Shown: one piece after another, positions 187 to 53,563 of the stretch
How the letters are laid out: the number at the start of each line of letters is the position of its first letter
Position numbering within the stretch: the stretch's first letter is position 1
Source: a bacterium
GTDB lineage: Bacteria > Hinthialibacterota > Hinthialibacteria > Hinthialibacterales > Hinthialibacteraceae
DNA length: 64,000 bases
Reading direction: 5' to 3'
NCBI GenBank assembly: GCA_016125385.1
Contig: WGLV01000022.1
Coordinates: 62,001-126,000, forward strand
Notes under the pieces: generated by a model
Databases searched by the model: none
What the model was told of the DNA's origin: nothing
Seen by the model: the letters and a program-made list of their open reading frames with translations, nothing else
Made by a program: the position numbers and the translations under genes

Positions 187-257
187 GTGGTTGGATTTTT
201 GCCTGTTCGTGATTACGAACGGTAAATCGGTCAAACTCTCCAGCATAAACGGCAATT

Positions 258-290
258 TCCCCGCCTGAAACGATTCCCTTCGGGCGGGGA
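258..290 (+). terminator. GC-rich hairpin after the CRTAC1-type gene
   Basis: TCCCCGCC (258-265) pairs with GGCGGGGA (283-290) around a 17-nt loop. No T-tract follows, so it is a possible factor-dependent terminator or RNA-end stabiliser. A perfect TATAAT lies just after it at 296-301, a candidate -10 for nhaA with no convincing -35. The nhaA leader also has a small hairpin, CCGTCT (357-362) with AGACGG (371-376). Confidence 0.35.
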
Positions 291-416
291 GCGGGTATAA
301 TCCCCCTTCAATCGTTCGGCGCTACTCAAAAAATATAGATACAAAACACTCCTTTCCCGTCTTCACCCGGAGACGGAGCGAGGAGCTTTTTATTCCGAAT
401 TATATGGAGCAAAATC

Positions 417-1712: not shown

Positions 1713-1725
1713 CCGCCCTGGTTTT

Positions 1726-2283
1726 TCACGCTTTGAGCAACGCCTCAAACGCGACGTACATCAGCAACGCGCCGCCGGCGAACTCCATCGCTCGTCCATA
1801 CGCCTCGCGCAGCCGCCGCCCCAGATGCAGCCCGACGAGGGCCATCAGGCCGGCGGCCGCGCCGATGGTCAGGGCGGGGCGCCAGGGGCTGATTTCCGCG
1901 ACGGCCAGTACGACGCCCACCGCCAGCGCGTCGATGCTAACCGCCAGTGAGAGCGAAACCAGAAACCATCCGCGTGAAAGATCGCGCCGCGCGTCGCGCT
2001 TGTCAGGATAAAGGGCTTCATAAAACGCGTGGAGCGCCACTCCGCTCAAAACGAGAAACACGAACCAATGGTCCCAATACGACAACCATTGCAGAGAGAC
2101 GCGTCCGGCTGACCAGCCCGCGAGCGTAAGCAGGCTCTGGAACAGACCGAAATGCCAACCGAGACGAAATGATTGTCCTTTGAATCTCTCGCCCGAACCG
2201 ATGCCGAGCGAGACGGAGAATGCGTCGCAACCCAGCGCGAGAGCGAGCAAGAGAATGGAAAAAGGCGAGTCGAGGCTGAGCAT
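1726..2283 (-). CDS. mntP: MntP-like manganese efflux protein (DUF204 family)
   Basis: A 185-residue protein made of two similar halves of three membrane segments each, the MntP/DUF204 architecture. The conserved acidic motifs are both present: LGCDAFSVSLG near residue 20 and SIDALAVGV in the second half, the residues thought to carry Mn2+. I chose ATG at 2283 because MLSLDSPFS leads straight into the first membrane helix; a GTG at 2328 would add 15 unhelpful residues. It lies about 150 bases downstream of pbpC on the same strand, so read-through is possible. There is no room for, and no sign of, a yybP-ykoY manganese riboswitch. The assignment is by family; metal specificity is inferred. Confidence 0.85.
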   Translation of the reverse strand: MLSLDSPFSILLLALALGCDAFSVSLGIGSGERFKGQSFRLGWHFGLFQSLLTLAGWSAGRVSLQWLSYWDHWFVFLVLSGVALHAFYEALYPDKRDARRDLSRGWFLVSLSLAVSIDALAVGVVLAVAEISPWRPALTIGAAAGLMALVGLHLGRRLREAYGRAMEFAGGALLMYVAFEALLKA

Positions 2284-2432
2284 GATGAATGGCCGTATGG
2301 ATGATGATACGAGCCTCGGCGAGATCACGCGGGCTCAAGCAGAGTATACCAGCACTAGCTCAAAAAGTGAGTCATTCCGCTCGTAGACTGATCCAGATTT
2401 TGGTATGGACTAAACCGCTTGTTTCGATGCGC

Positions 2433-25786: not shown

Positions 25787-28603
25787 TTACCAGAAACTCC
25801 ACGGTTGTATCAATGAAACGCGGGTTGATACGTATAGCGTCCAACGGTTTTCCGAGCGGCTCGCGGCGGCGAAATCGACTACGCCGTCGCCGTTGATGTC
25901 GAGCGCCGCGACGGAGCCCGGGTCGCCGATCACGTCGAATGAGACGGGTCTGTCGGTGTATCCGCCCGCGAAGAATACCAGGCGGTTTTTCTGAGGCAGC
26001 GATACGATCAGGTCGGTTTTACGGTCAAAGGTCAGGTCTCGCAGAGTCAGGCTGCCCGGCGTCTGGTTGAGCGAGAGTGTGCTCTTGGCGTTAAGGCCGT
26101 CTTGGGCCGCGCTGAGCCACAGCGTCAGGCTGGCGCCGTTCTGATTGATCGCGGCGAGGTCGGTGCGCCCGTCTCCGTCGATATCGCCTCCACGCAGGGC
26201 TGTCGGCGCGTCACCCAGTGAAAAACTCTGCATGGGGAAGAGAAAACGCCCGGAAAGCAGCTTGAAAACCGTCATCCGGTTTTGCTGGCGAAACGCGGCG
26301 GCGATCTTCAAACCGTCTGAATCGAACAGCGAAACCGCGTCGATGTCGGTGACGCCCGAGCTCAGCGTTTTTAGATCCCCGGCTCCAAACTCTCCGTCGC
26401 CGCTGGTTTGAAAGATCAGTACGTTACCGCTTTGCGCGCTCAAAACAGCGATGTCGTCATGTGCGTCTCCGTTGATCGCCGCTGAGATCGCGCGCAGCGG
26501 TTCTTCGTCCATGACCAGTTCATCCACTATGGCTAATGAACCGGCCCGGCCACCGATGATCTCTACTCTGGGATCGTGAGTCAGCGCGGCCGCCAGTTCA
26601 GTTCGCCCCTTCCTGCGCAGTGCGGCGATGGAAACAGGCCCTCGGTTCAGCGGCATGGTGAATGTCAGCGAGGGGCTCGTGCCGTTCCAGCCATACTGAT
26701 TCAGTTCATCCCGCGTGTTTGATACGAGGTATAGTTCGTCCTTGCCGTCGCCGTCGAGGTCGGCTCCGGTGACGTCGGTCCATCCGCGTCCCTGACCCGT
26801 AACGTCGATACGTTCATAGCGCGCGGCGAACTCAACCGGATCGAATCCCGGCGGCGTGGGCGTCGGGGTAATCGTGGGCGTCGGCGTGATCGTTGGCGTT
26901 ACGGTGGGGCTTGGGCTCGGCGTGGGAGACGGCGTCTCCGTTGGCGTCTGCGTGGGGCGCGGCGTCATGGAAGGCGTCGTGGTCGGCGTCGTTGATGGAC
27001 TGGGCGTTGGCGTAATGGTCGATGTTGGCGATGGAGTCGCGGATGGCGAAGGCGATACGGTCGGCATTGACGTCGCCGTTGGAGCGAGCGTTGGCGCTGG
27101 AGTGTTTGTTGGAACCGGCGTTACGGTTTGGGTTGGCGTAATCGTGGGTTGATGCGTTGGCGTTGATGTCGGCTCTATGGTCGGAGTTGGCGTCGGATTC
27201 AGCGTCGGGCTTGGCGTGATAGACGGCTGCGGAGTCGGCGTGGACGCGGTTGGAACGGTCGGCGTCGCCGGAATCGTGGGGCCGGGCGTTGGCGTGACGA
27301 AAACCGGTTTCTGAATCAGCAGCCCGAGAAAATTCGTGGTGGAAGTGGTTCCGATAGGGTTGGTGAGAAACGCCAGATCGGGCCATTGATCCGGGTTGAT
27401 TCTCGCCGCTGTGATCTTTCCGGCGGGCATCGCGTTCGGCTGGGTTTCGCTTCGCAGATCGATGTTGCGCAAAAAGTCGAATCCCTTTGGCGTCAGCCGC
27501 CAGATTTTGACGCGAGGCGCGGTTTTTCCTGCTTCGATTTCCACGGCGGGCGCGTAAAGTTCAGGCGTTCCATCAAGCGTCAGGTCGGCGGCGGCGAAAT
27601 CGATCGCCAGTGATCCGCTGTTGGCGCTTCCCAATAGATCGAATTGAAATGGAGCCCGTTGTTTGAATAGATGAATTTTTGAACTCGACAGGTCTGAATC
27701 GAGCACGGTCAGATAGGGAAAATCATTCTTGACGACTTTTATCGCCTGTGACTTGAGCGGCGATTGTGGATGATCGAGATGGGCGATCAATGAAAAACCG
27801 CCTTGTCCGTTCCCCTGATAGATTTGAATGGGGAACTGGCCCGGCGATAAAAATTCGCGCTTGATGTTGACGATCAGATCGAGATTCCCATCCCGGTCGA
27901 GATCGCTTAATTCCAGATAGGATGAGCTGACGCCTTCGATGCCGATTGGTTCCGGTTCAAACACCCGTTGCCCGTCATGTTCCGGATCGGGTTCATTACG
28001 CAGAAGAAATAGATGCGAAGATTCTATCTGCTGCAGCTCCACGAAGTTGTAGAGAATATCCACGTCGCCATCGTTGTCCACGTCGCCCAGCGTCATGCGT
28101 GAAAAACTGGAAGGCGAAGTCGCCGCGCCGTCATAAGTAAAAACCAGGTGCTTTTTGAAGGCCTCGGGCGTCAGATCCCCGCCCGAAAAATGATAATACT
28201 CGATCGTGTTGCCCGCACGATTCGGATTCTGATACAGAATGACCAGATCGTTAAGCGCGTCGCCATCGATGGGCGCGCCCTGCATGGATATGGGAACGTT
28301 GCTAAGCGGAATCGTATTGAGATCGCCGAAAAACTGGCCGTTATAATCCTGTAGGGCGGCGAGTTGCGGCTGGTTGGCGATGGTGATAAAGATTTCCAGA
28401 CGCCCTTCGCTGGGCACTTCGTTAATGAAGAGGTCTGAATTGGCGTTCAGCCCGAACAACGTTTCCAGCCGGGGAGGCAGGTTGAAATAAGGGCCGTCAG
28501 GGTCGGGAATCTGAATGGGCAGAATGATCTGCGCCTCGCCCGGTCGCGGCCACAGAGTGAAGAGAAGAAAGACAAGATAGACAATGCGGACGCAACGAAC
28601 CAT
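25787..28603 (-). CDS. Secreted FG-GAP/VCBS repeat protein with Pro/Thr-rich linker
   Basis: A 938-residue exported protein. After a signal peptide (residues 1-24, ending GEAQ) come an N-terminal beta-propeller half with calcium loops GDVDNDGDVD and SDLDRDGNLD, a Pro/Thr/Ser-rich linker of about 150 residues (roughly 433-584, DNA 26850-27303), then a second propeller half with ADLDGDGKDE, GDIDGDGRTD and LDINGDGVVD. These D-x-D-x-D-G loops are the integrin-like FG-GAP repeats of cell-surface adhesion or ligand-binding proteins. No wall anchor or autotransporter tail is present. The linker DNA is a degenerate repeat of PT codons. Function is probably surface binding or structural; specific ligand unknown. 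It is divergent from the two-gene unit at 28750. Confidence 0.85.
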   Translation of the reverse strand: MVRCVRIVYLVFLLFTLWPRPGEAQIILPIQIPDPDGPYFNLPPRLETLFGLNANSDLFINEVPSEGRLEIFITIANQPQLAALQDYNGQFFGDLNTIPLSNVPISMQGAPIDGDALNDLVILYQNPNRAGNTIEYYHFSGGDLTPEAFKKHLVFTYDGAATSPSSFSRMTLGDVDNDGDVDILYNFVELQQIESSHLFLLRNEPDPEHDGQRVFEPEPIGIEGVSSSYLELSDLDRDGNLDLIVNIKREFLSPGQFPIQIYQGNGQGGFSLIAHLDHPQSPLKSQAIKVVKNDFPYLTVLDSDLSSSKIHLFKQRAPFQFDLLGSANSGSLAIDFAAADLTLDGTPELYAPAVEIEAGKTAPRVKIWRLTPKGFDFLRNIDLRSETQPNAMPAGKITAARINPDQWPDLAFLTNPIGTTSTTNFLGLLIQKPVFVTPTPGPTIPATPTVPTASTPTPQPSITPSPTLNPTPTPTIEPTSTPTHQPTITPTQTVTPVPTNTPAPTLAPTATSMPTVSPSPSATPSPTSTITPTPSPSTTPTTTPSMTPRPTQTPTETPSPTPSPSPTVTPTITPTPTITPTPTPPGFDPVEFAARYERIDVTGQGRGWTDVTGADLDGDGKDELYLVSNTRDELNQYGWNGTSPSLTFTMPLNRGPVSIAALRRKGRTELAAALTHDPRVEIIGGRAGSLAIVDELVMDEEPLRAISAAINGDAHDDIAVLSAQSGNVLIFQTSGDGEFGAGDLKTLSSGVTDIDAVSLFDSDGLKIAAAFRQQNRMTVFKLLSGRFLFPMQSFSLGDAPTALRGGDIDGDGRTDLAAINQNGASLTLWLSAAQDGLNAKSTLSLNQTPGSLTLRDLTFDRKTDLIVSLPQKNRLVFFAGGYTDRPVSFDVIGDPGSVAALDINGDGVVDFAAASRSENRWTLYVSTRVSLIQPWSFW
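26850..27303 (-). repeat. Degenerate Pro/Thr-codon repeat inside the FG-GAP gene
   Basis: About 450 bases encoding repeated PTPT, PSPT and PTxTP units. At DNA level it is a run of GGCGTNGG-type units on the plus strand, which gives spurious Gly/Val-rich open frames on that strand. Such tracts are prone to slippage and length variation. Confidence 0.8.
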
Positions 28604-35286: not shown

Positions 35287-36297
35287 ATGACCAGAAAACG
35301 TGTGAGCTTCAATCAGATCGTATACAAAAGCGCCAAGATGGAGCAGATTATCCGGACCGCTCAGCGCATCGCGAACTCGGATATGCTGGTCTTGATTACC
35401 GGCGAAGACGGTACCGGCAAGGAGACGCTGGCCCAGGCGATTCATTACGCCAGCGACCGTTCAGCGGGGCGGTTTGTTTCGGTGAATTGCGCGGCGTTGC
35501 CCGACGCGTTGCTGGAGACCGAGCTGTTCGGCCATGAAAAGGGCGCGTTTACCGGGGCGGTTTACTCGCGCAAAGGCAAGTTTGAACAGGCGCAGGGCGG
35601 TTCTCTGTTTCTGGATGAAATCGGGGAAATGAGCCCTACCACGCAGGCGAAACTGCTTCGTGTTCTTGAAGAAGACGTCGCTGAACGCATTGGCGGCGGT
35701 GAGCCGATTCCGGTGGACGTGCGCATCATTACCGCCTCCAATCAGAATCTGCTGCAGGAAGTAAAAGAAGGCCGCTTCCGTCAGGATCTATATTACCGCT
35801 TGAAGGAAGTGCATCTCGACATCACTTCCTTGCGTGAGCGTAAAGATGATATCCCCGTTCTGGTCGATCATTTCATCAGGATTTATAACAAGCAATATCA
35901 TAAAAACATCACTGGCATCTCCGACGCCGCGCTCCAGTTCCTGATGCGGCACGACTGGCCTGGCAACGTGCGCGAACTGCACCACGTGATTAAGTGTGCT
36001 GTCCTGATGAACGATTCACAGGATATGATCTGGCTTGAACATATCCCGCTTGATATCCACCTGGCCGAATCGGCGCGGAAAAACGAAGACTCCTCCGAAA
36101 CCAAAGCCGATGAATTATTGGAAATTTTGTCCCTCGATGAGGCTGAAAAACGCCACATACTCAGAATTCTTGAATTTACCCGCTTTAATAAAAGCCAGGC
36201 CGCGAACATCCTTAAGATTTCCCGGCCTACGCTGGATCGTAAAATCGAGAAATATCAATTACATAACATCAAAGTTCAGGAAAAAATGAACGCCTGA
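35287..36297 (+). CDS. Sigma-54-interacting AAA+ transcriptional activator without receiver domain
   Basis: A 336-residue bacterial enhancer-binding protein reduced to its AAA+ and DNA-binding parts. Walker A is GEDGTGKETLA (residues ~39-49), the sigma-54 contact loop GAFTGA is at 86-91, Walker B is GSLFLDEIGEM, the arginine-bearing FRQDLYYRLKEVHLDI follows, and the C-terminal Fis-type HTH is NKSQAANILKISRPTLDRKIEKY, here shown as its recognition region. There is no N-terminal receiver, GAF or PAS domain, so it is not a classic two-component regulator; activity may be set by concentration, by a partner, or constitutively. It is the first gene of the cohesin/PilMN/secretin region. I saw no convincing -24/-12 promoter upstream of those genes by eye. 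Confidence 0.93.
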   Translation: MTRKRVSFNQIVYKSAKMEQIIRTAQRIANSDMLVLITGEDGTGKETLAQAIHYASDRSAGRFVSVNCAALPDALLETELFGHEKGAFTGAVYSRKGKFEQAQGGSLFLDEIGEMSPTTQAKLLRVLEEDVAERIGGGEPIPVDVRIITASNQNLLQEVKEGRFRQDLYYRLKEVHLDITSLRERKDDIPVLVDHFIRIYNKQYHKNITGISDAALQFLMRHDWPGNVRELHHVIKCAVLMNDSQDMIWLEHIPLDIHLAESARKNEDSSETKADELLEILSLDEAEKRHILRILEFTRFNKSQAANILKISRPTLDRKIEKYQLHNIKVQEKMNA

Positions 36298-36604: not shown

Positions 36605-38632
36605 ATGATCCAGATTCTGAAAAGCGCCGCTTATCGAACCAGTCTCATCGTTCTCGGCTTCGCTGCGTTCGCCCCCCTCGACTCTTACGCGCAATACGGC
36701 AATCCGTATGGCGGCTCCGGCTTCAACAGTTACAACCAGGCCGGTTATGGAAACAACTACGGAAACGCTTCTCGCTATACCCAGCCCGGCGGCTATGGCG
36801 GCGGGTATGGTGGTTCCTCATACGGCGGCGGGTACGGCGGTTCGTCTTATGGTGGTGGATACGGTGGTTCTTCGTTCGGCGGAAGCAGTTTCGGCGGCGG
36901 TGGATTTGGACGAAGCAGTTTTGGAGGCGGCGGCTTTGGCGGAAGCTCTTTCGGCAGCGGCCGCTCGGGGCGCAGCAGCCGCTCCAGTCGAAACAGTAAC
37001 TACGGCGGATATAGCGCCCAGAGCGCTGGAAACAACTATAACAGCGGCGGCTACAATTCCGGTTACTCCAACTCGCGCAGTTCGCGTTCGTCGCGCGGAA
37101 GCCGTGGCGGCAATTATCAGAACTACGGCTCCAACAATCCGTACGGAGGCCAGTATCAGGCTGGCTCCACCGATCCCAATCAGCCTGGCCAGACTTCGCC
37201 GAGTTCCGTGGCGAACGGCCGCCGCAAGGCGCTGAACGGCTCGACCAACACCGGTGCTTTACCTCAGACTGGCGCGGACGCCAGCGGTGGGGGAGACGGA
37301 GGCATTCAGGTTCAGGGCGGGGGAGCGCCCGCCGCGGCTGGCGGCGCCGCCGCTCCGGGTCAGCCCGCGGCGCAGGGCCGCGCTCAGGGCAAGAAAACCC
37401 AGGCGACTGAAACCCAGTTCCGCACCCGCGAATCGGCGATGCTGTACATGAAACCGGCCCGCAGCGTGGTTGCGGTCAGCCAGCCGGTTGAAGTCGACGT
37501 CATGCTGGCCAATTCCAGCCGTAGCGACTTCGACGAAATGCGCTTTGAAATCGCGTTTAATCCCGAACGGTTGATGGTGGTTGATGGTCAGGATGAGCAG
37601 GGAAACTGGATTCCAGCGACCGACCTGCGTCTGACGCCGACGGAAGAAGAATTGAAGGAACTCGACGATCAGAACAATTCCTCGGGCAAGAAGACCGTCT
37701 TTATCATGGATAAGCCCCGAGGCGTCTATAACATTGATGAAAACCGGGTCGATAACGCCAGCGGCCGCATCGATTTCAAGATGAGCGTTCCCGAAAAAAC
37801 CGCCAACGAAGCGGGAATCATCGGCCGTATTACGGTCGTCCCTCTCGTCGCGATGGAAAAGGCGGAAATGAAGTTCCTGTTCGTTGATCCCAATGACGAT
37901 AAGGCGCCCACGGCCGATAACCTCAATACGTATATTCACCTCAAGGGCGAAGACCAGTTGGGTTCATCTTACGATCCCGCCGATGGCGTGATTCATCTTG
38001 AACTCGAAGTGCTCAGTTCGCTCGATCAGGAACGGGCTCGAACCAAAGTTGAAATCGCCGATGACACGCGCACTTTCGATGGCGATGAGGGCGGCGGCAT
38101 CGAATTACACCTGCTGCCGAGACAATCCACCGTCGACGTTGGCGACGTCGTCGAAGTCGATGTGGTTCTCGCCAATCCCAACGCCGAACAATTCGACGCG
38201 CTGAGTTTGCTGGTCGCGTTCAATCCCCGCATCTTTGAGGCGGTGGATGCGGACGATTATTCGCAGGGCGTCAACCTCGAAACCGAACCCTATAAAGGCA
38301 AGTTCGCGTTTGATTTTCCCCTGCTCAATTCCGTGTCGAATGAGAAGGGGCTGGTTGATTACCGGGTGCGAAATATGCGCCGCCCTCTCAAATCGCAGGG
38401 CGTTTTGGCGACCATCAAACTGCGCGCCGTCCGGCCGACCACCAAAACCACGTTCCGTATTCTGGTGAACGAAAAAGGCGAAGACCCGACCACCGGCGTT
38501 TTCATGAAAAATCGTGACGCGCTCGGCGCTCCGTCCGACCCCTATGATGGATTTACAACGGCTTCGTTGACAGTTCGTCCAACGATGGCCTATCTAAATA
38601 AATTGAGAAAGAGCATCGACCAGAGCGGATAA
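36605..38632 (+). CDS. Secreted Gly/Ser/Tyr-rich protein with two cohesin-like domains
   Basis: A 675-residue exported protein. Residues 1-29 are a signal peptide ending DSYAQ. Residues ~30-265 are low-complexity and Gly/Ser/Tyr/Phe-rich, with a run of YGGGYGGSS and FGGGGFG repeats followed by Arg/Ser-rich and Ala/Gly/Pro-rich stretches, a sequence type seen in self-assembling or phase-separating proteins. Residues ~275-455 and ~470-665 are two related beta-domains with the cohesin-like strand pattern: LYMKPARSVVAVSQPVEVDV then FEIAFNPE, and LHLLPRQSTVDVGDVVEVDV then LLVAFNPR. Cohesin-like domains occur in some secretin- and pilus-linked proteins. It precedes the PilM-PilN fusion by 89 bases. 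Likely exported by, or part of, the envelope machine encoded downstream. No named family found. Confidence 0.8.
   Translation: MIQILKSAAYRTSLIVLGFAAFAPLDSYAQYGNPYGGSGFNSYNQAGYGNNYGNASRYTQPGGYGGGYGGSSYGGGYGGSSYGGGYGGSSFGGSSFGGGGFGRSSFGGGGFGGSSFGSGRSGRSSRSSRNSNYGGYSAQSAGNNYNSGGYNSGYSNSRSSRSSRGSRGGNYQNYGSNNPYGGQYQAGSTDPNQPGQTSPSSVANGRRKALNGSTNTGALPQTGADASGGGDGGIQVQGGGAPAAAGGAAAPGQPAAQGRAQGKKTQATETQFRTRESAMLYMKPARSVVAVSQPVEVDVMLANSSRSDFDEMRFEIAFNPERLMVVDGQDEQGNWIPATDLRLTPTEEELKELDDQNNSSGKKTVFIMDKPRGVYNIDENRVDNASGRIDFKMSVPEKTANEAGIIGRITVVPLVAMEKAEMKFLFVDPNDDKAPTADNLNTYIHLKGEDQLGSSYDPADGVIHLELEVLSSLDQERARTKVEIADDTRTFDGDEGGGIELHLLPRQSTVDVGDVVEVDVVLANPNAEQFDALSLLVAFNPRIFEAVDADDYSQGVNLETEPYKGKFAFDFPLLNSVSNEKGLVDYRVRNMRRPLKSQGVLATIKLRAVRPTTKTTFRILVNEKGEDPTTGVFMKNRDALGAPSDPYDGFTTASLTVRPTMAYLNKLRKSIDQSG
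36790..36960 (+). repeat. Gly/Ser/Tyr repeat tract in the cohesin-like gene
   Basis: About 170 bases of near-tandem units coding YGGSS and GGYGGSS with drift to FGGSS and FGGGGFG; the units at 36790-36860 differ by only a few bases (for example GGCGGGTATGGTGGTTCCTC against GGCGGGTACGGCGGTTCGTC). It suggests recent expansion and possible slippage. Confidence 0.75.
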
Positions 38633-38721
38633 GGCCGCTGTCCCTTCATTGTGGACGAAAGTCTTGGTAGAATCGCCTCCGGTTGACGCCCAAAAACAAG
38701 CCCAACAAAGGCAGCATACTG

Positions 38722-40962
38722 ATGGCAAAGAGTCCCTTATTGGTGATTGATATTGGACAGAACCGCGTCAAGGTGATGGAACTGGCGCCGGCGTCCAAGA
38801 ATCGTGTGAAAGTGGTGAAAATGGGGTCGGAAGCTCTGCAACTCGGTCCAAAAGCCGAGCAGGGCGAGATCTACCAACGTTTGCAGGAAGTTCTGCCGCT
38901 GCTTCTTCAGAGTCTCGGCGTTAAAAACAAGCGGGCCATCGTCAGTTTGCCGGGCCGCGCGGCGTTCACGCGCCGCCTTCAGGTCCCGGTGGTGCGCGGC
39001 CGTCAGCTCGACCGCATCATCCGCTATGAGGCGCGTCAGCACGTCCCGTTTCCGCTTGAAGAAATCAACATGGATTACCAGGTCGGCAAGCAGGGCGAGG
39101 AGGCCTCTGAGCTCGAAGTCAATCTGGTCGCTGTCCGGCGTGAAATCGCCGATGGCTACGTCAAGATCGTGAAAAAATGCGGCGTGCGCACCGATATCAT
39201 TGAGGCGGCGCCGCTTTCCATTTATAACGCATACGCCGCTTCCGCCCATCGCGACGTGGAAGAGGTCACCGCCGTAATTTCAGTCGGCGCCTCCAGCACC
39301 GATATCGTCATCGAACAGAACGGCCGCATGCAGTTCATGCGCAGCGCCCCCACCGCGGGCAACCACCTGACCGAACTGCTGATCAAAAAACATAACATTG
39401 AAGCCGATAAAGCCGAAACGCTGAAACGCAAATCGGCTGATCAATATACCGAGTCCGACGAACTGAATCCCGAAGACGTGGCGCTTGTGCTTGAACAGGG
39501 TTTCGAACACATCGTGACCGAGATTCAGCGCTCGTTTGACTTTTACGTCAGCCAGCCCCACGCCATGCCGGTGACCCGCGTGTTCCTGTGCGGCGGCACG
39601 GTGAACATGGAAGGCGCCAGCGAGTTTCTGGAAGACAGGCTTGGCGTTCCTGTTACGATTCTTGACGCGACCGACCTTGAAACCGTCGAAACTCCGGCTG
39701 AATACAAAGACGCGCTGCGCCGCGAAGCCGGCCTGATGGGCATGGCGGTCCGCGCCGCCGGTCAGGCGCCTTGCGCGCTCAGCTTCGCGCCCTCCGCCGT
39801 AAAACAACGTCTTGAACTCGAACGCCGTTCTCCGTTGCTTATCCTGATGGCGGTGTTGCTGGCCGCCATGCTGGGAGGTTCGGTGTACGCGCTCGACAAC
39901 CTGGTTCAGAAAAAACGCCAGGCCGCCGAGCAGATGAAACAGATCATCAGCCCGGGCGAAACCGCTTCGCCGCGCCTGAAAGAACAGCGTGAAATTCAGG
40001 AAAAATACAACAACCGCTATGCCCGTATCTTCAACGTCGCCAAAAAACGCGGCGTCCTGAGCCGGATCTATCTCGAAGTTCAGGAAATGATCCCGCAGGA
40101 TATCTGGCTCGATTCCATCGACCTGAAAAGCGATCGCCTCTCCATCGTGGGCCGGGCGTTGAACGATGCGCGTATTTCCACTTACATGCAGAATCTGGCG
40201 CTGTCGCCGTTCTTCGATAATGATACCGTCGTCTTGCGTAACGCGGTCTTTTCCACCGATTCGTCGGCTGGTTCGCCGCAGGTCGATTTCACCATCGAAA
40301 TCGTCGGATTTAATGAACCGACCCAGGCGGAAATCAAATTCGTGGATGAGTTCCGCAGCCGCATGCAGGATACGCCCATCCTCGCCATTCGCGTGATTCG
40401 CCCCGGCGATGACAGCGCCGGCGCGGCTCCCTCGGGTGGAATGGGTGGTTACGGCGGCGCCATGGGTGGGCCGATGGGCGGCATGGGCGCCGCTCCCGCG
40501 TCATCCCCCGCGACGATGGGTGCTGGCGCGGAAGGCGAGCCCGAACCGGATGCGACGCTGCTCATTGGCGTCTATCAGATGGATGATCAGAACGAGCGCC
40601 TCGCGCTGATGAACAAGATCAACGCGGCCTTGAACGCCGCCAGTTTCAGTGAAATCAAGACGATTGAACTCCGCTTCCATGGACGTGTGTCCGATGAGCG
40701 TGAACGCATCCTGATCGATCGTGAACAGCTCGCCCGGTTTGGCGAAGGCAGCCTTGGGCCGGAGGAATTTGAGAAATCCTTCACCCTCGTGACGCCGTCG
40801 CCCAGCCCGACGCCGACTCCCACGCCGACGCCTGACCTCTCTGAAGAAGGCGAAAGCACAGGTGGCGGTTATGGTATGTACGGCATGGGCATGTACGGCA
40901 TGGGCGGCTATGGAATGATGGGCGGCGGCATGATGGGCGGCGCTCCCGCGGCGGGTCAGTGA
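38722..40962 (+). CDS. PilM-PilN fusion, type IV pilus alignment-complex-like protein
   Basis: A 746-residue protein that joins two normally separate pilus assembly proteins. Residues ~1-360 are PilM-like (actin fold): LLVIDIGQNRVKV, VSLPGRAAFTRRLQVPVV, and AVISVGASSTDIVIEQ. A short segment SFAPSAVKQRLELERR resembles the PilN motif that docks into PilM, then one membrane helix (about 370-394), then a PilN-like periplasmic domain (about 395-530). A further ~150-residue domain follows, split by a Gly/Met/Ala-rich linker, then a Pro/Thr-rich spacer near 691 and a C-terminal Gly/Met/Tyr-rich repeat (GMYGMG). ATG 38722 fits the PilM start; an upstream TTG would add 13 unlikely residues. Part of the cluster from 35287 to 46072. 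Confidence 0.82.
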   Translation: MAKSPLLVIDIGQNRVKVMELAPASKNRVKVVKMGSEALQLGPKAEQGEIYQRLQEVLPLLLQSLGVKNKRAIVSLPGRAAFTRRLQVPVVRGRQLDRIIRYEARQHVPFPLEEINMDYQVGKQGEEASELEVNLVAVRREIADGYVKIVKKCGVRTDIIEAAPLSIYNAYAASAHRDVEEVTAVISVGASSTDIVIEQNGRMQFMRSAPTAGNHLTELLIKKHNIEADKAETLKRKSADQYTESDELNPEDVALVLEQGFEHIVTEIQRSFDFYVSQPHAMPVTRVFLCGGTVNMEGASEFLEDRLGVPVTILDATDLETVETPAEYKDALRREAGLMGMAVRAAGQAPCALSFAPSAVKQRLELERRSPLLILMAVLLAAMLGGSVYALDNLVQKKRQAAEQMKQIISPGETASPRLKEQREIQEKYNNRYARIFNVAKKRGVLSRIYLEVQEMIPQDIWLDSIDLKSDRLSIVGRALNDARISTYMQNLALSPFFDNDTVVLRNAVFSTDSSAGSPQVDFTIEIVGFNEPTQAEIKFVDEFRSRMQDTPILAIRVIRPGDDSAGAAPSGGMGGYGGAMGGPMGGMGAAPASSPATMGAGAEGEPEPDATLLIGVYQMDDQNERLALMNKINAALNAASFSEIKTIELRFHGRVSDERERILIDREQLARFGEGSLGPEEFEKSFTLVTPSPSPTPTPTPTPDLSEEGESTGGGYGMYGMGMYGMGGYGMMGGGMMGGAPAAGQ

Positions 40963-41019: not shown

Positions 41020-42573
41020 TTGGCACGGAAAAAAGTTTCTCTCGATAAAGACGCCATCCTTGAATTTTCAGCCAAGTTTAAGGATCAGATCTTTCTGGTG
41101 GTCCTTTTAGCCGCGTTGGGCGCGGGTGGATGGTACGTGTACGGTCAGACGTCGTTGACCGTCGATCAGATTATTAATCAGGCTAAATCGGGGCCCGGAG
41201 CCGGTGGCGGCGCCGCGCAGAGTTCCGTCGTCGATCCCCAGGAACTGGTGACGCTGCTCACCACCAAGCGGCCCAAGTCCATGTACCAGGTCGAGCGCAA
41301 TCCTTTCGGTTCGCCGGAAGAACAGTTGCGCATGCGCCAGGAAGTCGACCGCGCCTATCAGCGTGGCGTCGAACTCTACAATCAGGGCCGGTATCAGGAA
41401 TCCGTCGATCAGTTTGACCGCGTTATTCAACTCGACGTGACTGAGACCCGGATGAGCTATCCGGTGCTGCCGTCTGAATATAAACGGCGCGCCATGCAGG
41501 AAAACGCCAAAAAGAATCTCGATTCGATTCTGACCAGCGCTCAGAACGATGTAAACGAAGGCGACCGCCTCGCGCAGGCCGGTCAAACGGACAAGGCGAT
41601 GGAACTGTACCATCGCGCCCGTACCAACCTCGCCTCCGTGATCGAATCCGATACCGATGGCAAAGTGATCGGCGCTGATAACCTGACCAAGGTGAAGACC
41701 CTTGAGCAGCAGGCGTTTAAAAAATTCATCCAGCTGCGCGGTCAAACCTTGCTGAAAGACGTTCAGGCGGCGATGACCGAGGCTCAGCAGGCCTCTTCGG
41801 GTTCCGACTATATCGCTATGCTGAAGGCGGCAGCCACGCTTCAGCGTATTCAGGTTGAGATTCAGAATATCGATCCCAATGCGGAGTTGGTGAACCGCAC
41901 CACGCGCACCCAGGTCAAATCGCTGTATGATCAGCTGGAATCGAAAGTAACCTCCAACTTCAGTGCGTTGATCGCGCAGGCGCAACAACAGTTCGCGCAG
42001 GGCATCACCGCCAAGGATCTGGTGAAAACGCAGGAAGCCATCACGGCCCTCCAGCAGGCTCGGACCGCGAATCCAAAAGACACGACGCTCGCTCAACAGA
42101 TCACCGACTTCATCAAACAGCGGGCCGATCTGGTCATTCAGAACGCCCAGCAGTTCGTCGCCGATCAGGACGCGCTGCTCAAACAGGGGAATTACGATCA
42201 GTTTGACGTGGCGGGACGAGACCGCTTGCTGGCGGAATTGAATCGCCTGGCTGATATGGGCAACACCTTCGATGACGCCAAGCGCAATCAGATGGTGAGC
42301 GCGATCAGTTCGCTCAAGGGCTTGAAATTGCCGCCGCTGCTGACGTCGAAATACGATATCCAGACCGTGGCGCCGATGGGGAGCAGCTACAAAGTCGACC
42401 TGATCGATAAGACCGGTCCCACCGCTCGCCAGCGTACCCTGATCCTCCGCGAAGGCCGTCCGGATACCAGTACGAGGATCGAATTGAAAAAAGTTGACAC
42501 CGATGGGGGCTTTGTTATACTTTCCAGACCTGATTACATGGACGTGAAAGTCCCGATTTCGAGCGGAAGTTAA
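41020..42573 (+). CDS. Single-pass inner-membrane protein with TPR and C-terminal beta-domain
   Basis: A 517-residue protein: basic cytoplasmic tail, one membrane helix (about residues 22-43, FLVVLLAALGAGGWYVYG), a periplasmic coil, a TPR around 110-137 (YQRGVELYNQGRYQESVDQF), a long alpha-helical middle (150-400) rich in Gln, and a beta-rich last ~90 residues. The start is TTG at 41020 with GAGG seven bases before it. It sits between the PilM-PilN fusion and the secretin, the place of PilO and PilP in type IV pilus operons, but it is much longer than either and I see no clear PilO fold; the C-terminal beta-domain could play the PilP role of touching the secretin. A name is not justified. Confidence 0.75.
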   Translation: MARKKVSLDKDAILEFSAKFKDQIFLVVLLAALGAGGWYVYGQTSLTVDQIINQAKSGPGAGGGAAQSSVVDPQELVTLLTTKRPKSMYQVERNPFGSPEEQLRMRQEVDRAYQRGVELYNQGRYQESVDQFDRVIQLDVTETRMSYPVLPSEYKRRAMQENAKKNLDSILTSAQNDVNEGDRLAQAGQTDKAMELYHRARTNLASVIESDTDGKVIGADNLTKVKTLEQQAFKKFIQLRGQTLLKDVQAAMTEAQQASSGSDYIAMLKAAATLQRIQVEIQNIDPNAELVNRTTRTQVKSLYDQLESKVTSNFSALIAQAQQQFAQGITAKDLVKTQEAITALQQARTANPKDTTLAQQITDFIKQRADLVIQNAQQFVADQDALLKQGNYDQFDVAGRDRLLAELNRLADMGNTFDDAKRNQMVSAISSLKGLKLPPLLTSKYDIQTVAPMGSSYKVDLIDKTGPTARQRTLILREGRPDTSTRIELKKVDTDGGFVILSRPDYMDVKVPISSGS

Positions 42574-42898
42574 TGGGATTACTATGAATTTGAAAGCGCG
42601 CATGATTCGCGAAATAACGGGCGGGGATTGCGCGCTTCGATTGAGTCTCTCAGCGGATTGCGTAGTGTAAGGCTCGAAATTTGCTCAATTTCACGTTTTT
42701 GCTGTTCGCCCCACTTTAACTTGAAGGCAAGGTTTGATTGAATGGGTAGTCACGCCGTTTGACATGGCCAGCATCCGGCCAGTCAATGGCTTCTGTGTGG
42801 ATGGATGAAATCTGCAATGGTTTCGCGTCTTTGGCGCGTTTTCATGGCGATTGGAAAACCGCCGGCTCTCCGGTGTATGGATAAGGAGTTACATAGAG
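42574..42898. other. Intergenic region before the secretin gene
   Basis: 325 bases in the same direction as its neighbours. A 28-codon frame (42584-42670) starts 11 bases after the preceding stop and could be a chance frame. TGGCC and GGCCA near 42767-42783 make a small hairpin. No convincing promoter, though the gap is long enough for one. Confidence 0.35.
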
Positions 42899-45800
42899 AT
42901 GGTTTGCAACGTGCGTCGGGTTCGAATTCCCTCTTTGAAATCTACGCGAATCCTGTTGACGGGCGCTCTGGTGCTTGCCTGTTCGCTGGCCGCTTCGGCC
43001 AACGGTCAACTGGCCAGCTGGATCGCCGTGTCGGCGGCGCAAACTGGCGCCCAGGCGCAAACGTCCGTCAAACATCAGGTCGATTACCTGTTGAACTTGG
43101 CCCGTCAGGAGATTCGTGGTGGTAACGTCGATGAAGGCAAAGCCCTTCTTCAGCGAGTCCTGATTCTCGATCCCCTGAACGAGAAAGCCAAACAGGAACT
43201 TATCCAACTGACCGATTCCGGCGTCTCGATCGCCCCGTCGTCCAAAGCGATCGCTTCCGCGATGTCGACCGATCAAACGCTTCAGCTCGCTCAGGCCATG
43301 ATGAAAGATAACGATTTCAGCGGCGCTCAGGCAACGCTGGAAAAAGCCATGGCGGCGGCGAAAACCAAGGAAGAGAAAACCCTCATCCGCGGTTATCTGG
43401 CTCAGATCGATAAAGAGCAGAGCCGGATGCAGACGCTGAAGGCTGAAGTGACCGAATACAACCTCAGCAATCTGGATAAACAGCTCCAGAAGGCTTCGCT
43501 CTACATGAGCAACAATCAGTACGAAGAAGCCAAAAAAGAATTGCTGATCGCGCAGGAAATGGCCCCCGGCGACAAGCGCGTTGAAGGCATGCTCGCTCAG
43601 GCCCAGCGCGGCGAAGCCAATATGGAAACCAAACAGGGCGCCGTGGCTGAAAACGTACAGTCTCAGGTGAACGAACAGTCCCGCAAGGTCGCCCAGCAGC
43701 TGTTCTCCGAAGGCCAGGATCTCTACAAACAGGGCATGGTCATCGAGGCGACTGAAAAATGGAGCGAAGCGGCTCGCATCGCGCCTGATTTCCAGCAGGC
43801 TCAGACCTATCTGAACAACACCCATGCTGAATACGAGCAGGCGGTCGCGGCCCGGTCGGCCAAAAAAGACGCCGCCGCCAAAGACGCCGAATTCGAAAAG
43901 AAACTCGACGAAGAAATCCTCCAGTATTCAACCTCCGGCGGCCGCGTTGACATTAAGGAAGTCATCAGCTTCCTCAGCAACCTGAGCGGCCTGAACGCCG
44001 TGGTCGGTGAAAACGTGGAAGGCGGAGTCGCCTTTGACGTCAAAGACAGCACCGTCCGTCAGTTGCTCAACCTGCTCCAGAAACAGTATGGTTTCGTGTG
44101 GCGCCGTGAAGGCGACACCATCTTCGTCGAACGCGCTTTCCAGACTCGCATCTTCCCTCTGAGCGAAGCGCAGTACAAAACTATCGAAACCATCCTCAAC
44201 GACCCATCCGTTCTTGAAGATTCCAGCCGCAACCTGCGCACGATCCTCTACGGTCCATCCGAAGAGTTCAACGTGCCGGGCAAACAGCTCTACCTCAATC
44301 GCAACACCCAGTCTCTGGTGGTGACCGACACGCTCGAAAACCTCAAAACGGTCGAGGCCTTCCTGAAAGACATGCCTCAGATCGTTGGCGAAAAAAAGCC
44401 GCTCGTCACCCAGGTCTATCAGCTGGACCGTGACATCTCCAAAGACCTCTACGAGATCATCCGTCTGATGCTGTTCGGCGACAAAGGCACGTATGACGCC
44501 GCCGATAAGCGCCGTCAGCTGTTCCTCGAACCCAACTCGAACACGCTGATCGTGATCGACTATCCTGAAAACATCAAACGCGTCGAAGACGTTCTCGCCA
44601 ACCAGCAGATCTCCAGTCAGCTGGAAAACGATCAGCTGGAAGCGCGTGAATTTTCGCTGACTGACGTGGATGACGTTGAAGACACGCCGGAAGCCTTCGC
44701 TCGCCGCGAACTGTTCGTCAACAAGATTTATGAAATCGTCGAACAGATGCTGATGGGTAAGGAAGGCGTCGAAAAGTACAAATTGTCCGGACGCCGCATC
44801 TTCACCGATCCCGCTCGCGGAACCCTTACCGTGGTCGATTCACCTGAAAACATTCGCCGCGTTGAAGAATATCTGAACAGCGTTCGCGGTGAGACCACGC
44901 AGGATATCCTGATCGAGTCATTCCCGATTAAACACGTGAACGTCTACGAAATCGCCGATGCGCTGGCTTATCTGTTCTTCGACTCTCAGCAGACCACGCG
45001 TAACATCTTCCTCAGCCAGAGCGCCTTCCAGTCGCTGGGTACGGATGAAACGGGCGATACTTCAACCAACCTCGATAACCTCTTTGAAGAAACCAGCCGG
45101 AACCGCTTCAACCTGACGGGCGGCGGCGGCGGTGGAACCGACCTTCTTCAGTTCTTCTCGGTTCGCCTGTATCCGGATATCAACACCAACAGCATCGTGG
45201 TCTTTACTCCCGATCAGGAAGTCATCGATCTGATCGTCCGCGTCATCAATACCTTCGACAAGCCTCAGCGCATGGTCGAACTCGAGAGCCGCGTGGTTTC
45301 GGTTTCTCTCAACGACCTTCGCTCCATCAACTTTGACTGGTTGTTGACCAATCCGTTCCGTGGCGATTTCAACTTCGATCCGAACGGCTTTGAAAACAAC
45401 GTGGGCCTGACCGAAGGCAACCCGACCGATACCGATACCAAGCCGGGCGTTCAGTTCAGCCTTCATACGCTGGGCGAATCGCGCCTCGACTTCATCATGA
45501 ACCTGCTCGAAACCACCAGCAGCCTGAACGTCATGGCGGCGCCGAAGATTCTGTCGGTCCCCAACCCGCTTGATCCGCCCCGTATTTTCGTCGGTCAGCA
45601 GATTCCCTTCTCGCAGGATGCGACCATCGATGACCAGGGCGACGACGACCCGACCAACAACCGTCTGATCGTCAACTTTGAGCGCGCCTTCGCGGGTACC
45701 ATGCTTGCCTTCATTCCCTTTATTCTGAATGACAACCATGTATACGTTGAAATGGCCCCCCAGATCATTGAAGCGGGCGAACGTCTTCCGCTGGCGGTTG

Positions 45801-46072
45801 ATACCGGTCTCGCGGCCGGTCAGACGCTGCCTAACATCGGTCCTCTGCTCCTCAATCAGAAAGCGGTCGTTACCAGCGTTCGTGTGAAGGATGGCAGTAC
45901 GGTTGTCCTTGGCGGCCTGATCGATGAAAAAGAGAACGAAAAGCTGAACAAGACGCCGATTCTGTCCAAGATTCCCTTTATCGGCAATCTGTTCACCGAT
46001 CGTTCGATCGAAAAGGTCAAAAATTCGACTCTGATCTTTGTCACGGTCCGAATCGTCGAACCTGAACTCTGA
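42899..46072 (+). CDS. Secretin with N-terminal TPR region (PilQ/GspD-like)
   Basis: A 1057-residue outer-membrane secretin. ATG 42899 is preferred over the frame's first codon at 42851 because AAGGAG (42883-42888) lies ten bases before it. A signal peptide (LLTGALVLACSLAAS, with a possible but imperfect lipobox at Cys28) precedes TPR-like helices (about residues 60-320) and a linker. Then come an N0/STN-like domain (GGRVDIKEVISFL), several N1/NolW-like beta-alpha domains, and the secretin core with VELESRVVSVSLND, NVMAAPKILSVPN, and VVLGGLIDEKENE before PFIGNLF. TPR plus secretin in one chain is uncommon; usually a separate PilF/GspS-like pilotin carries TPRs. It is the last gene before a strong terminator. 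It should form the gated pore of the cluster's machine. Confidence 0.93.
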   Translation: MVCNVRRVRIPSLKSTRILLTGALVLACSLAASANGQLASWIAVSAAQTGAQAQTSVKHQVDYLLNLARQEIRGGNVDEGKALLQRVLILDPLNEKAKQELIQLTDSGVSIAPSSKAIASAMSTDQTLQLAQAMMKDNDFSGAQATLEKAMAAAKTKEEKTLIRGYLAQIDKEQSRMQTLKAEVTEYNLSNLDKQLQKASLYMSNNQYEEAKKELLIAQEMAPGDKRVEGMLAQAQRGEANMETKQGAVAENVQSQVNEQSRKVAQQLFSEGQDLYKQGMVIEATEKWSEAARIAPDFQQAQTYLNNTHAEYEQAVAARSAKKDAAAKDAEFEKKLDEEILQYSTSGGRVDIKEVISFLSNLSGLNAVVGENVEGGVAFDVKDSTVRQLLNLLQKQYGFVWRREGDTIFVERAFQTRIFPLSEAQYKTIETILNDPSVLEDSSRNLRTILYGPSEEFNVPGKQLYLNRNTQSLVVTDTLENLKTVEAFLKDMPQIVGEKKPLVTQVYQLDRDISKDLYEIIRLMLFGDKGTYDAADKRRQLFLEPNSNTLIVIDYPENIKRVEDVLANQQISSQLENDQLEAREFSLTDVDDVEDTPEAFARRELFVNKIYEIVEQMLMGKEGVEKYKLSGRRIFTDPARGTLTVVDSPENIRRVEEYLNSVRGETTQDILIESFPIKHVNVYEIADALAYLFFDSQQTTRNIFLSQSAFQSLGTDETGDTSTNLDNLFEETSRNRFNLTGGGGGGTDLLQFFSVRLYPDINTNSIVVFTPDQEVIDLIVRVINTFDKPQRMVELESRVVSVSLNDLRSINFDWLLTNPFRGDFNFDPNGFENNVGLTEGNPTDTDTKPGVQFSLHTLGESRLDFIMNLLETTSSLNVMAAPKILSVPNPLDPPRIFVGQQIPFSQDATIDDQGDDDPTNNRLIVNFERAFAGTMLAFIPFILNDNHVYVEMAPQIIEAGERLPLAVDTGLAAGQTLPNIGPLLLNQKAVVTSVRVKDGSTVVLGGLIDEKENEKLNKTPILSKIPFIGNLFTDRSIEKVKNSTLIFVTVRIVEPEL

Positions 46073-46095
46073 TCCGAATTCAATTCGTAAATCTG

Positions 46096-46127
46096 AAACG
46101 CCCCGGTCAAACGGCCGGGGCGTTTTT
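46096..46127 (+). terminator. Rho-independent terminator after the secretin gene
   Basis: AAACGCCCCGG (46096-46106) pairs perfectly with CCGGGGCGTTT (46115-46125) around an 8-nt loop, with a T-run to 46127. Marks the end of the cohesin/PilMN/secretin unit. Confidence 0.92.
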
Positions 46128-46190
46128 GTATTCCGGGCGGTAAACGATTATTATGGCGGAGTGCTCGTTTACTCACTTGGGAGGGGAAGC

Positions 46191-47369
46191 ATGAGGCTGA
46201 GATTCAAGCGTAGAAAACGCCGGGTTCGAATGTCAGAAAAATCCGGGTTGCCCGCTGGCGCCGCGATGTACGTGGGCGCCGCGGATGAACAGGAATCCAA
46301 CGTCACTACAATCGAGTATTCTGAGAACGAGGCGCAGATGCGGGGCCTTGCGTGTGATCGGGCTCAGGTTTGGAAGGATCGCAAAGATGGCCGCAAATGT
46401 TGGATCCACGCCGATGGAGTCAGCGATGTCCAGGCCATGCACGAACTTTTTGAGTGTTTTCATCTTCACCCCCTCGTTCGTGAAGATATTCTCAATACGC
46501 TCCATCGCTCCAAGGTCGAAGAATACGAAGATTCGCTGTTTCTGGTTATGAAACGGCTGCGCTTCGAGCGGGATACTCTCTCCATTGCCACCGAACAGAT
46601 CAGCATGGTCCTTCAGGCGAATCGCCTGATTACCTTTAAGGAACAGGCGGACGGTTTTCTAAAGCCCTTGCGTGAGCGCATCCTGCAGGGAAGGGGAAAA
46701 GCGCGTCAGATGGGCGCTGATTACCTCCTGTACGTCATTCTCGACATGATTGTCGACGACTATTTCCCGGTTTTGGAGGCGTTGGAAGACGCCATCGACT
46801 GGATCGACGAACATGAAATGTCTCACCCCGATCAGGAAACGTTAAACACGATCCATGTACTGAAACGCTCCACCATCGAATTTCAGAAGACGGTTCGTCC
46901 CGTTCGAGAGCTGGTCAAGACGCTGGTCTCCACGGATATTGATTATGTCTCGGAGCCTGTTCGTATTTACATGCGCGATGTCTATGACCACATCGTCGCC
47001 GTGTTGGACGATGTTGAAACTCACCGAGAGTTGCTTGTCAACATGATGGATCTGGGGCTTTCCATCATCAGTAATCGCCTGAATGAAGTAATGAAAGTAT
47101 TAACCGTCCTCGGCGCTTTGTTCGTTCCACCAACCCTGATCGCGGGAATCTATGGAATGAACTTCGAATTCATGCCCGAATTGCGCTGGCCTTGGGGATA
47201 TGCGTATTCGTTGGCGATGATGGCTGCTTCCAGCGCTCTGGCGGTGGGGTTCTTACGGCTGAGCCAACGCCGCATCCAGAGTCCTCGTCAGAGGGCTGGC
47301 CTTGATCGGGTTAATACGTCGCGCCTCAAACCGGCGGACGATCCGGTTCCATCGACGGGACGCAAATGA
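46191..47369 (+). CDS. corA: CorA-family magnesium/cobalt transporter
   Basis: A 392-residue inner-membrane Mg2+ channel of the CorA family. The signature YGMNF, followed by MPELRW, lies in the loop after the first of two C-terminal membrane helices; the long N-terminal cytoplasmic domain (MSEKSG onward) is typical. The ATG at 46191 has GGGAGGGG (46179-46186) just upstream; an open frame reaches 46038 but overlaps the secretin end and terminator, so I reject it. The basic stretch RFKRRKRRVRM at the start is unusual and makes ATG 46230 an alternative start. Single gene, convergent with the MerR regulator. The metal is inferred from family. Confidence 0.9.
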   Translation: MRLRFKRRKRRVRMSEKSGLPAGAAMYVGAADEQESNVTTIEYSENEAQMRGLACDRAQVWKDRKDGRKCWIHADGVSDVQAMHELFECFHLHPLVREDILNTLHRSKVEEYEDSLFLVMKRLRFERDTLSIATEQISMVLQANRLITFKEQADGFLKPLRERILQGRGKARQMGADYLLYVILDMIVDDYFPVLEALEDAIDWIDEHEMSHPDQETLNTIHVLKRSTIEFQKTVRPVRELVKTLVSTDIDYVSEPVRIYMRDVYDHIVAVLDDVETHRELLVNMMDLGLSIISNRLNEVMKVLTVLGALFVPPTLIAGIYGMNFEFMPELRWPWGYAYSLAMMAASSALAVGFLRLSQRRIQSPRQRAGLDRVNTSRLKPADDPVPSTGRK

Positions 47370-52177: not shown

Positions 52178-53176
52178 TTACTTTGTCTCGGGCGAATTCA
52201 GATTGACGGCTTCAAGCGCCTTTTGAGCCGCTGGGTAGGGAATCGGAAAGAAGCCCGCTTTGATCACCGCTTCCTGACCCTCACGGCTGAAAACGTACCG
52301 GATAAACTCGCGCCGCAGCGGATCTAACTCTCCGCCCGGCTTGGCGTTCAACGTCAGCCAGAGGTTTCGCGTCAACGGATATCGTCCTGAGTAGGCGTTT
52401 TCGGAGGTGGGCTCGATCGGCTCCGAGCCGGGCGCGCGGCTGATCGCGATCGAGCGCACGTCCTTGGTTCTGTATCCGATGCCGCAGTACCCGATGCCGT
52501 ATTTGTCATTTGAAATGCCTTGGATGGCGGATGAACTGCCCGGCTCTTCGATCACGCGATCCTTGTAATCGCCGCCGGAGAGCGCGAGCGATTTGAAATA
52601 GCCGTATGTGCCAGAGGCGGCGTTTCGGCCATAAATATTGATGGGGCGTTTTTCCCAATCGCCGCTTAACCCGGTCTCGCCCCAGTGTGATATATCGGAT
52701 GAAGCCCCGCTGTTCCTGTTTTTTGAGAAAATGGCGTCCAGTTGTTCCAGGCAAAGGCTTTTGAGTGGGTTGTCTTTATTCACGAAAATCGATACGACGT
52801 CGAGACAGACCGGCAATTGCGTCAGGCGATAGCCGAATTTTCGTTCAAATTCATCGTTTTCCCGGTCTCTGACTGTCCGGCTCATCGGGCCAAAGGTCGC
52901 CGCGCCCGCGATCAGCGCCGGCGGTGCGGTGGAAGAGCCTTTCCCCTCCACCTCAAACGAGACGTGCGGGTAGTATTGGCTGAACCCTTCGCCCCACAAT
53001 GTGACGAGGTTGTTCATTGTGTCCGACCCGACGCATTTGATCGCGCCGTATACACCCACCGCTGCATGGTAGGACTCAAATCGCTTGTCGATCTCAGGCT
53101 GCGCGGCGGCGTGAAGAGTCGCGCAAATAGCGATGAATAATAAACTTGAACGAATCTGAAACGAAATGCTCATCAT
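52178..53176 (-). CDS. pstS: Phosphate-binding protein, PstS-like
   Basis: A 332-residue periplasmic binding protein with a Sec signal (residues ~8-25). Phosphate-type features are GSDTMNNLV near the start, EGKGSSTAPPALIAG, SRTVRD, GRNAASGTYGYF and the conserved glycine/serine turns. It looks like the PBP_like_2 phosphate family; the exact ligand cannot be seen. M1 and M3 (ATG 53176 and 53170 region) are both possible; the difference does not change the signal. No pstC, pstA or pstB lies nearby, so it may feed an unlinked Pst system, or a phosphate signal pathway; the PiT transporter gene is divergent, 387 bases away, suggesting a shared role. Confidence 0.85.
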   Translation of the reverse strand: MMSISFQIRSSLLFIAICATLHAAAQPEIDKRFESYHAAVGVYGAIKCVGSDTMNNLVTLWGEGFSQYYPHVSFEVEGKGSSTAPPALIAGAATFGPMSRTVRDRENDEFERKFGYRLTQLPVCLDVVSIFVNKDNPLKSLCLEQLDAIFSKNRNSGASSDISHWGETGLSGDWEKRPINIYGRNAASGTYGYFKSLALSGGDYKDRVIEEPGSSSAIQGISNDKYGIGYCGIGYRTKDVRSIAISRAPGSEPIEPTSENAYSGRYPLTRNLWLTLNAKPGGELDPLRREFIRYVFSREGQEAVIKAGFFPIPYPAAQKALEAVNLNSPETK

Positions 53177-53563
53177 GCCGCCTCCCGGTGAAATTCACGC
53201 TGAATCTTTGCACGATTGTTTACCCCTGACTAGGAACAGGGTATAGTAGCCACGCATGCCTTTAAAAGAGGATTCTTAATGCCTCTTTAAGAGCGGGTAT
53301 TATGTTCTGATGCGGCGCGCCCCTTGTGAATAGACACGGGGCGGATATTTCTAAATCGTCGCATTTTTCCGATTCGATTTGAGTGTAGGGCTTCAACATG
53401 AATAAGCAAAATCCATCTTGTCCGGAGTCCGTCTGTTTCTCTCCTGACATGGAGCTTTTGCCACGGCGTCGAGAATATTCCGTCCGCCGTAAAAACCTCT
53501 GTTTATCTGGAATTTCGTTCAAAACAATCCTTCATCAAATCTCTCTCGAAATGGCCGAATAAA
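53177..53563. other. Divergent region between PstS-like and PiT genes, with candidate promoter
   Basis: 387 bases. TTTACC (53219-53224), 17-base spacer and TATAGT (53242-53247) make a good rightward promoter 317 bases before the PiT ATG, so the leader is long. TACCCCTG (53221-53228) and CAGGGTA (53237-53243) form an inverted repeat lying within that promoter, a possible operator. No Pho-box-like repeats were recognised. An 86-codon minus frame (53262-53522) is weak and likely chance. Confidence 0.45.
53219..53247 (+). promoter_or_regulatory. Candidate promoter with overlapping inverted repeat, upstream of PiT
   Basis: TTTACC-N17-TATAGT with TACCC(C)TG and CAGGGTA arms inside. The near-perfect 7-bp inverted repeat spans the -35 and -10 spacer, a usual place for a repressor site. 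Transcription start would be near 53254. Confidence 0.45.

Follow-up and report, generated by a model that had tools for sequence, protein, structure and literature searches.

A protein with two cohesin domains is present in all 14 genomes of the window's phylum that we examined. Its gene lies directly 5' of a gene for a PilM-PilN fusion in 13 of them, and the fourteenth copy is on a 5-kb contig. Judged from its sequence and its neighbours, this double-cohesin protein most likely serves a type IV pilus-like machine as an accessory in the periplasm or the outer membrane. In the window, which is the whole stretch of 64,000 nucleotides analysed here, the open reading frame occupies 36605..38632 (plus strand, as are all features of this locus described below) and encodes 675 amino acids from an ATG start, comprising a predicted signal peptide, a low-complexity tract and the two cohesin domains. 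The phylum sample consisted of 14 genomes of 4–7 Mb from one class. The group is probably the OLB16-type lineage now named Hinthialibacterota, to which the NCBI taxonomy gives the rank of a separate phylum; the OLB16/SURF_12 lineage was earlier misclassified as 'Omnitrophica' (PMC10066038). A contig search with the single protein gave no relatives, and a query made from an alignment recovered them.

Both C-terminal domains are cohesins, judging from profile comparisons and predicted structures. Domain 1 (residues 275–472, 37427..38020) and domain 2 (residues 496–660, 38090..38584) are homologous to each other (hhalign probability 99.9, E 6e-32). The Pfam family Cohesin (PF00963) matches domain 2 exactly at the curated cut-off, with 24.1 bits; domain 1 of the window protein alone has no Pfam match, and Pfam cohesin was recognized in 6 of the 9 members of the domain-1 alignment and 7 of the 8 members of the domain-2 alignment. 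Cellulosomal cohesins were the best matches in the PDB for the profiles of both domain 2 (E 2.5e-6) and domain 1 (E 5e-4). These matches needed profiles, since phmmer searches of the PDB with a single sequence returned no cohesin. AlphaFold models of the domains are only moderately confident (pLDDT about 65; 64.5 for the pair), and a Foldseek search with the pair gave a type II cohesin dyad as the top match (E 4.5e-15), while domain 2 alone gave single type II cohesins. The profiles and the beta-sandwich fold, the latter taken from models with pLDDT of about 65, agree with each other and bear out the two cohesin-like folds that a preliminary description of this DNA had proposed; neither approach made the folds unrelated to cohesin. 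In the tree of domain 2, the sequences of families f1 (that of the window), f2 and f5 are grouped with full support; support is weak at the deeper forks, those that place f3 and f4 among them.

The predicted signal peptide covers residues 1–29 (36605..36691), was read from the sequence, and ends in ...DSYA before a Q. A hydrophobic stretch and an AxA-type site are also found at the N-terminus of the aligned relatives, and the protein is likely to be exported by way of this predicted signal. Pfam recognized no anchor domain and no other surface domain in the double-cohesin protein.

Between the signal peptide and the cohesins lies a tract of about 245 residues (residues 30–274, 36692..37426) that is presumably disordered, judging from its composition: Gly makes up 28%, Ser 16% and Tyr 9%, counted from residue 24. 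It contains 13 [YF]GG motifs and five [YF]GGSS motifs, and one 60-residue segment is 97% Gly/Ser/Tyr/Asn/Phe; the core of YGGGYGGSS, FGGSS and FGGGG repeats occupies residues 64–115 (36794..36949). The low-complexity, Gly/Ser/Tyr-rich region placed before the two domains in the preliminary description is thus a real feature of the protein. At the DNA level the tract contains repeats of 27- and 30-bp units that match by only 76–78%, and its Gly and Ser codons are mixed, so that the tract is either old or maintained as protein. Recent DNA slippage was judged unlikely as its origin, because the repeat units have diverged and the codon choice differs. A short motif, GGIQVQG (residues 232–238, 37298..37318), is conserved within the tract. 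A motif scan against shuffled tracts found its general form, [GSA][GASK][IVL]x[IVM]x[GS], in 11 of the 12 tracts of f1–f3 and in no more than 0.4% of the shuffled ones. A semi-conserved stretch, QTSPSSVANGRRKALNGSTNTGAL (residues 196–219, 37190..37261), was recognized in the f1 alignment by eye.

The Gly/Ser/Tyr tract is confined to the window's family (f1) and the next family of the same order (f2), in which the residues G/S/Y/N/Q/R make up 59–79% of the tract in those copies that keep it. Neither f4 nor most copies from other phyla retain this composition: the tracts of f4 and of one paralogue in G025, a genome of a second phylum, are Pro/Gln-rich (36–46% G/S/Y/N/Q/R), and other tracts are rich in Lys, Asp and Ser. 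The [YF]GG motif occurs 14, 13, 9, 6, 4, 2, 1 or 0 times across the copies. Absence of the tract among close relatives, which would have told against the preliminary description, was found in no more than two paralogues, of which one has a reduced Gly/Tyr tract and the other none, and otherwise in more distant families. In the f1 genome G002 (L027:9249-13261), the double-cohesin gene is duplicated in tandem before the PilM-PilN gene, and Gly/Tyr repeats are present in one copy only. The repeat tract is genuine but fast-changing, and what is conserved across the relatives, as far as their sequences indicate, is a long disordered-looking spacer, to which f1–f3 add the short motif. The earlier suggestion that such a composition might form fibres or condensates, as it does in eukaryotes, is not supported by conservation, because the copies differ in repeat number, from 14 down to 0, and distant tracts are Pro/Gln- or Lys/Asp-rich with the same domains kept.

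The double-cohesin gene stands in an operon with components of pilus and secretion machines. Upstream is a sigma-54 activator with AAA+ and Fis-type HTH domains and no receiver domain (35287..36297; Pfam Sigma54_activat 1.3e-69, HTH_8). Downstream are the PilM-PilN fusion (38683..40962; Pfam PilM_2 1.8e-41, PilN 2.7e-12), with one transmembrane segment at residues 386–404 according to hydrophobicity, a TPR protein (41020..42573; Pfam TPR_2) anchored by an N-terminal transmembrane segment, and a secretin with N-terminal TPR repeats (42851..46072; Pfam Secretin 5.7e-31, Secretin_N and TPR, with PilQ/GspD matches in the PDB). Across the phylum, the sigma-54 activator is located 5' of the double-cohesin gene in 12 of the 14 genomes, and a TPR protein and a secretin usually follow PilM-PilN. 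The preliminary description had the double-cohesin gene heading the secretin locus; the link with that locus proves stronger than was claimed, since the gene order is phylum-wide, but the first place in the conserved neighbourhood belongs to the sigma-54 activator. Near-matches to the sigma-54 -24/-12 consensus are fewer in the window than expected by chance, with none upstream of the double-cohesin gene, and the exact site is absent from the whole genome. No Rfam RNA was found at the locus. Because the operon itself contains no ATPase, platform protein or pilin, and the 12 T2SSE-family matches in the window's genome lie elsewhere, the assignment to a machine is indirect.

Three further features of the window may be recorded here. 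An ORF for a CorA-type transporter (46038-47369) shares the direction of the secretin gene and overlaps its 3' end, an arrangement not seen at the remaining loci examined in the phylum; a 938-aa protein with several FG-GAP repeats is encoded on the minus strand (25787-28603); and the genes for a PHO4-family transporter and a phosphate-type binding protein (PBP_like_2) lie in divergent orientation at 52178-55165.

The PilM-PilN fusion also carries a low-complexity sequence. It ends in GGGYGMYGMGMYGMGGYGMMGGGMMGG after a Pro/Thr-rich spacer, and residues 723–752 (40849..40938) are 90% Gly/Met/Tyr; of 13 homologues from the phylum, 11 have a similar tail. Given the single transmembrane segment, the tail is predicted to be periplasmic. 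When non-overlapping ORFs were scanned for 30-residue windows with at least 60% G/M/Y, 18 of 238 were positive, namely six cohesin proteins, 11 PilM-PilN proteins and one secretin, which comes from the genome whose PilM-PilN has no such tail. The 238 ORFs came from the window and the related loci, mostly around the double-cohesin operon, and do not constitute a whole-genome control; among the ORFs so sampled, Gly/Met/Tyr-rich tails are almost confined to the products of this operon. In the f4 genome G013 (L038, ORF 40-3924, minus strand), the secretin has a Gly/Ile/Leu-rich insertion, GGGGGIGGGIGGLGGG, and the PilM-PilN protein of the same genome has no Gly-rich tail, as if the Gly-rich feature had shifted from one operon product to another.

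Outside the phylum-wide operon, cohesin proteins of this kind are found in several other contexts. In G001, which belongs to the window's family, a second copy adjoins a divergent operon of the order GspE-GspF-pilin-GspJ-GspK-PilM/N. In the second phylum, that of G025, the cohesin family is present in 37 of 40 genomes, mostly as two paralogues; no secretin or PilM neighbour was found at the loci examined, and the function there may be separate from the pilus-like machine. In both genomes examined of a third phylum (G142 and G279), a protein made up of a signal peptide, a Pro-rich linker and a single cohesin is encoded among type II secretion/pilin genes, adjoining a GspK-like gene; the cluster includes GspF and, in G279, GspE-type genes as well. 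The linkage to PilM/PilN/secretin genes in 13 of 14 genomes is thus accompanied by independent linkages in G001 and in the third phylum, as expected of an operon component. Both third-phylum genomes also encode a secreted protein in which an N-terminal PDZ domain is joined to a cohesin-family domain (L157:9262-10164 and L158:9444-10400), and the G142 copy is near PilT-type ATPase genes. A search of the openly accessible literature found no published description of the double-cohesin architecture. The earlier statement that no named bacterial family has this order of parts therefore stands for the exact architecture, within the searches made, but the combination of signal peptide, disordered linker and cohesin recurs in at least three phyla.

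We give about an even chance to the following reading of these data: the double-cohesin protein would be a dedicated envelope component of the type IV pilus/type II secretion-like machine of its own operon, in which the flexible tract is a spacer and the cohesins act independently of dockerins. Its signal peptide would direct the protein to the periplasm or the outer-membrane side, where the two cohesins would contact a machine component or each other, and not a dockerin. The N-terminal tract would be a flexible spacer carrying the short docking motif GGIQVQG, and it may touch the Gly/Met/Tyr tail of PilM-PilN, predicted to be periplasmic, through weak aromatic and glycine contacts. Such contacts between tract and tail would help to link PilM-PilN, the platform in the inner membrane, to the TPR-secretin. 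A bolder version, which we regard as a long shot, is that a dockerin-independent cohesin-pair subunit, together with the Gly/Tyr/Met tails on itself and on PilM-PilN, builds a flexible coupling, condensate-like in nature, that spans the periplasm from the inner-membrane platform to the TPR-secretin. To our knowledge, condensate-like coupling by low-complexity sequences is not a known construction principle of pilus or secretion machines.

One alternative is a cellulosome-like receptor, with the two cohesins holding dockerin-bearing secreted proteins at the cell surface. The genome of the window does encode dockerin modules, several of them at the C-terminus of secreted proteins, as well as other cohesins, and in the fold comparison a type II cohesin dyad from a cellulosome ranks first; these dockerins and other cohesins, however, sit in unrelated proteins. 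In a 982-aa secreted protein of the same genome (L148:2718-5663), two type I dockerins and a cohesin domain occur together with a long region of PTNTPVP repeats. No Pfam dockerin was found at E<=1e-4 in six relatives outside the phylum that keep the cohesin family (G025, G312, G398, G416, G142 and G279), a set that includes G025, assembled as a single contig, and G142, with an estimated completeness of 100%; none was found at the same threshold in G007, a genome of the window's own order. A scaffoldin would be expected to co-occur with dockerins in the same genomes, and they are present in that of the window and undetected in the six relatives; by this test a cellulosome-style role was judged unlikely. 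Because these six show no detectable dockerin, a classical cohesin–dockerin role cannot be general for the family on present sequences, allowing for dockerins that may have diverged below detection. For the window protein in particular, we consider a dockerin receptor very improbable.

Two further explanations concern the destination of the protein and the meaning of its tract, and we consider both unlikely, to a similar degree. The protein might be cargo of the machine, i.e. an adhesin or matrix protein that leaves through the operon's secretin, its tract self-associating or sticking to surfaces outside the cell and its cohesins binding other cell-surface proteins. A fast-evolving repeat tract of variable repeat number, as is often found in surface proteins, the predicted signal peptide, and the second-phylum copies found without secretin synteny are all consistent with cargo. 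The near one-to-one linkage with PilM-PilN throughout the phylum nevertheless suits a machine part better, Pfam shows neither an anchor nor another surface domain, and a matched low-complexity tail sits on the membrane protein of the operon. The second of these explanations leaves the cohesin pair functional and makes the tract a neutral, drifting linker whose Gly/Tyr composition has no role. It accounts for the fact that families alike in domains and operon differ in composition (59–79% G/S/Y/N/Q/R in f1/f2 members that keep the tract, compared with 36–46% in f4 and one G025 copy) and for the G002 paralogue without YGG repeats. Neutral drift fits less well with the short motif conserved within the tract, with repeat units that have diverged in DNA and are conserved as protein, and with the near confinement of Gly/Tyr/Met-rich tails to proteins of this operon.

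Cohesins are usually read as a sign of cellulosome-like docking. Here, throughout the phylum, a protein with a cohesin pair belongs to a pilus-like secretin operon, and members of its family occur in genomes where no dockerin was detected. If the role as an envelope component is confirmed, a cohesin annotation in uncultured phyla should not be taken as evidence of complexes that degrade polysaccharides, and an unrecognised accessory subunit would be added to pilus-type machines. Furthermore, an operon with two products that carry low-complexity tails provides a bacterial case for testing whether such tails make contacts in the envelope.

Cellulosomal type II cohesins (PF00963), such as the dyad 3l8q of the Acetivibrio scaffoldin, resemble the present protein in domain family and tandem arrangement. 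In contrast to them, it has no scaffoldin context and no CBM or enzyme modules, is encoded in a PilM-PilN/secretin operon, and is found in genomes without detectable dockerins as well. Non-cellulosomal cohesin modules are reportedly the subject of a 2009 paper by Peer et al., and the likeness, going by its title, is that of cohesin domains outside cellulosomes.

In Akkermansia muciniphila, the MUL2 cluster (Amuc_1098-1102) has been proposed to mediate glycan attachment, and its MUL2A (Amuc_1102) is described as archaeal type IV pilin-like (PMC13174399). In this cluster, likewise, a PilM protein and a secretin stand together with intermediate proteins and a secreted beta-domain protein, whereas in the operon described here TPR proteins occupy the place of Amuc_1099/1100. 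The PilM-PilN protein of the window scores 240 bits against the NCBIfam model for Amuc_1101 (cut-off 650), and the secretin scores 93 bits against that for Amuc_1098 (cut-off 750). The structure of Amuc_1102 (PDB 7DSZ) is neither in the profile matches of our domains at E<=1 nor among the 50 best fold matches listed. Because the model scores are far below the cut-offs and a different protein stands beside PilM, the resemblance to MUL2 is one of plan, not of membership. The PilM, PilN and secretin (PilQ/GspD) modules are clear homologues of those in the type IVa pilus/type II secretion platform. Compared with that platform, the present operon is distinguished by the fusion of PilM with PilN and its Gly/Met/Tyr tail, by the TPR repeats of the secretin and by the additional double-cohesin protein.
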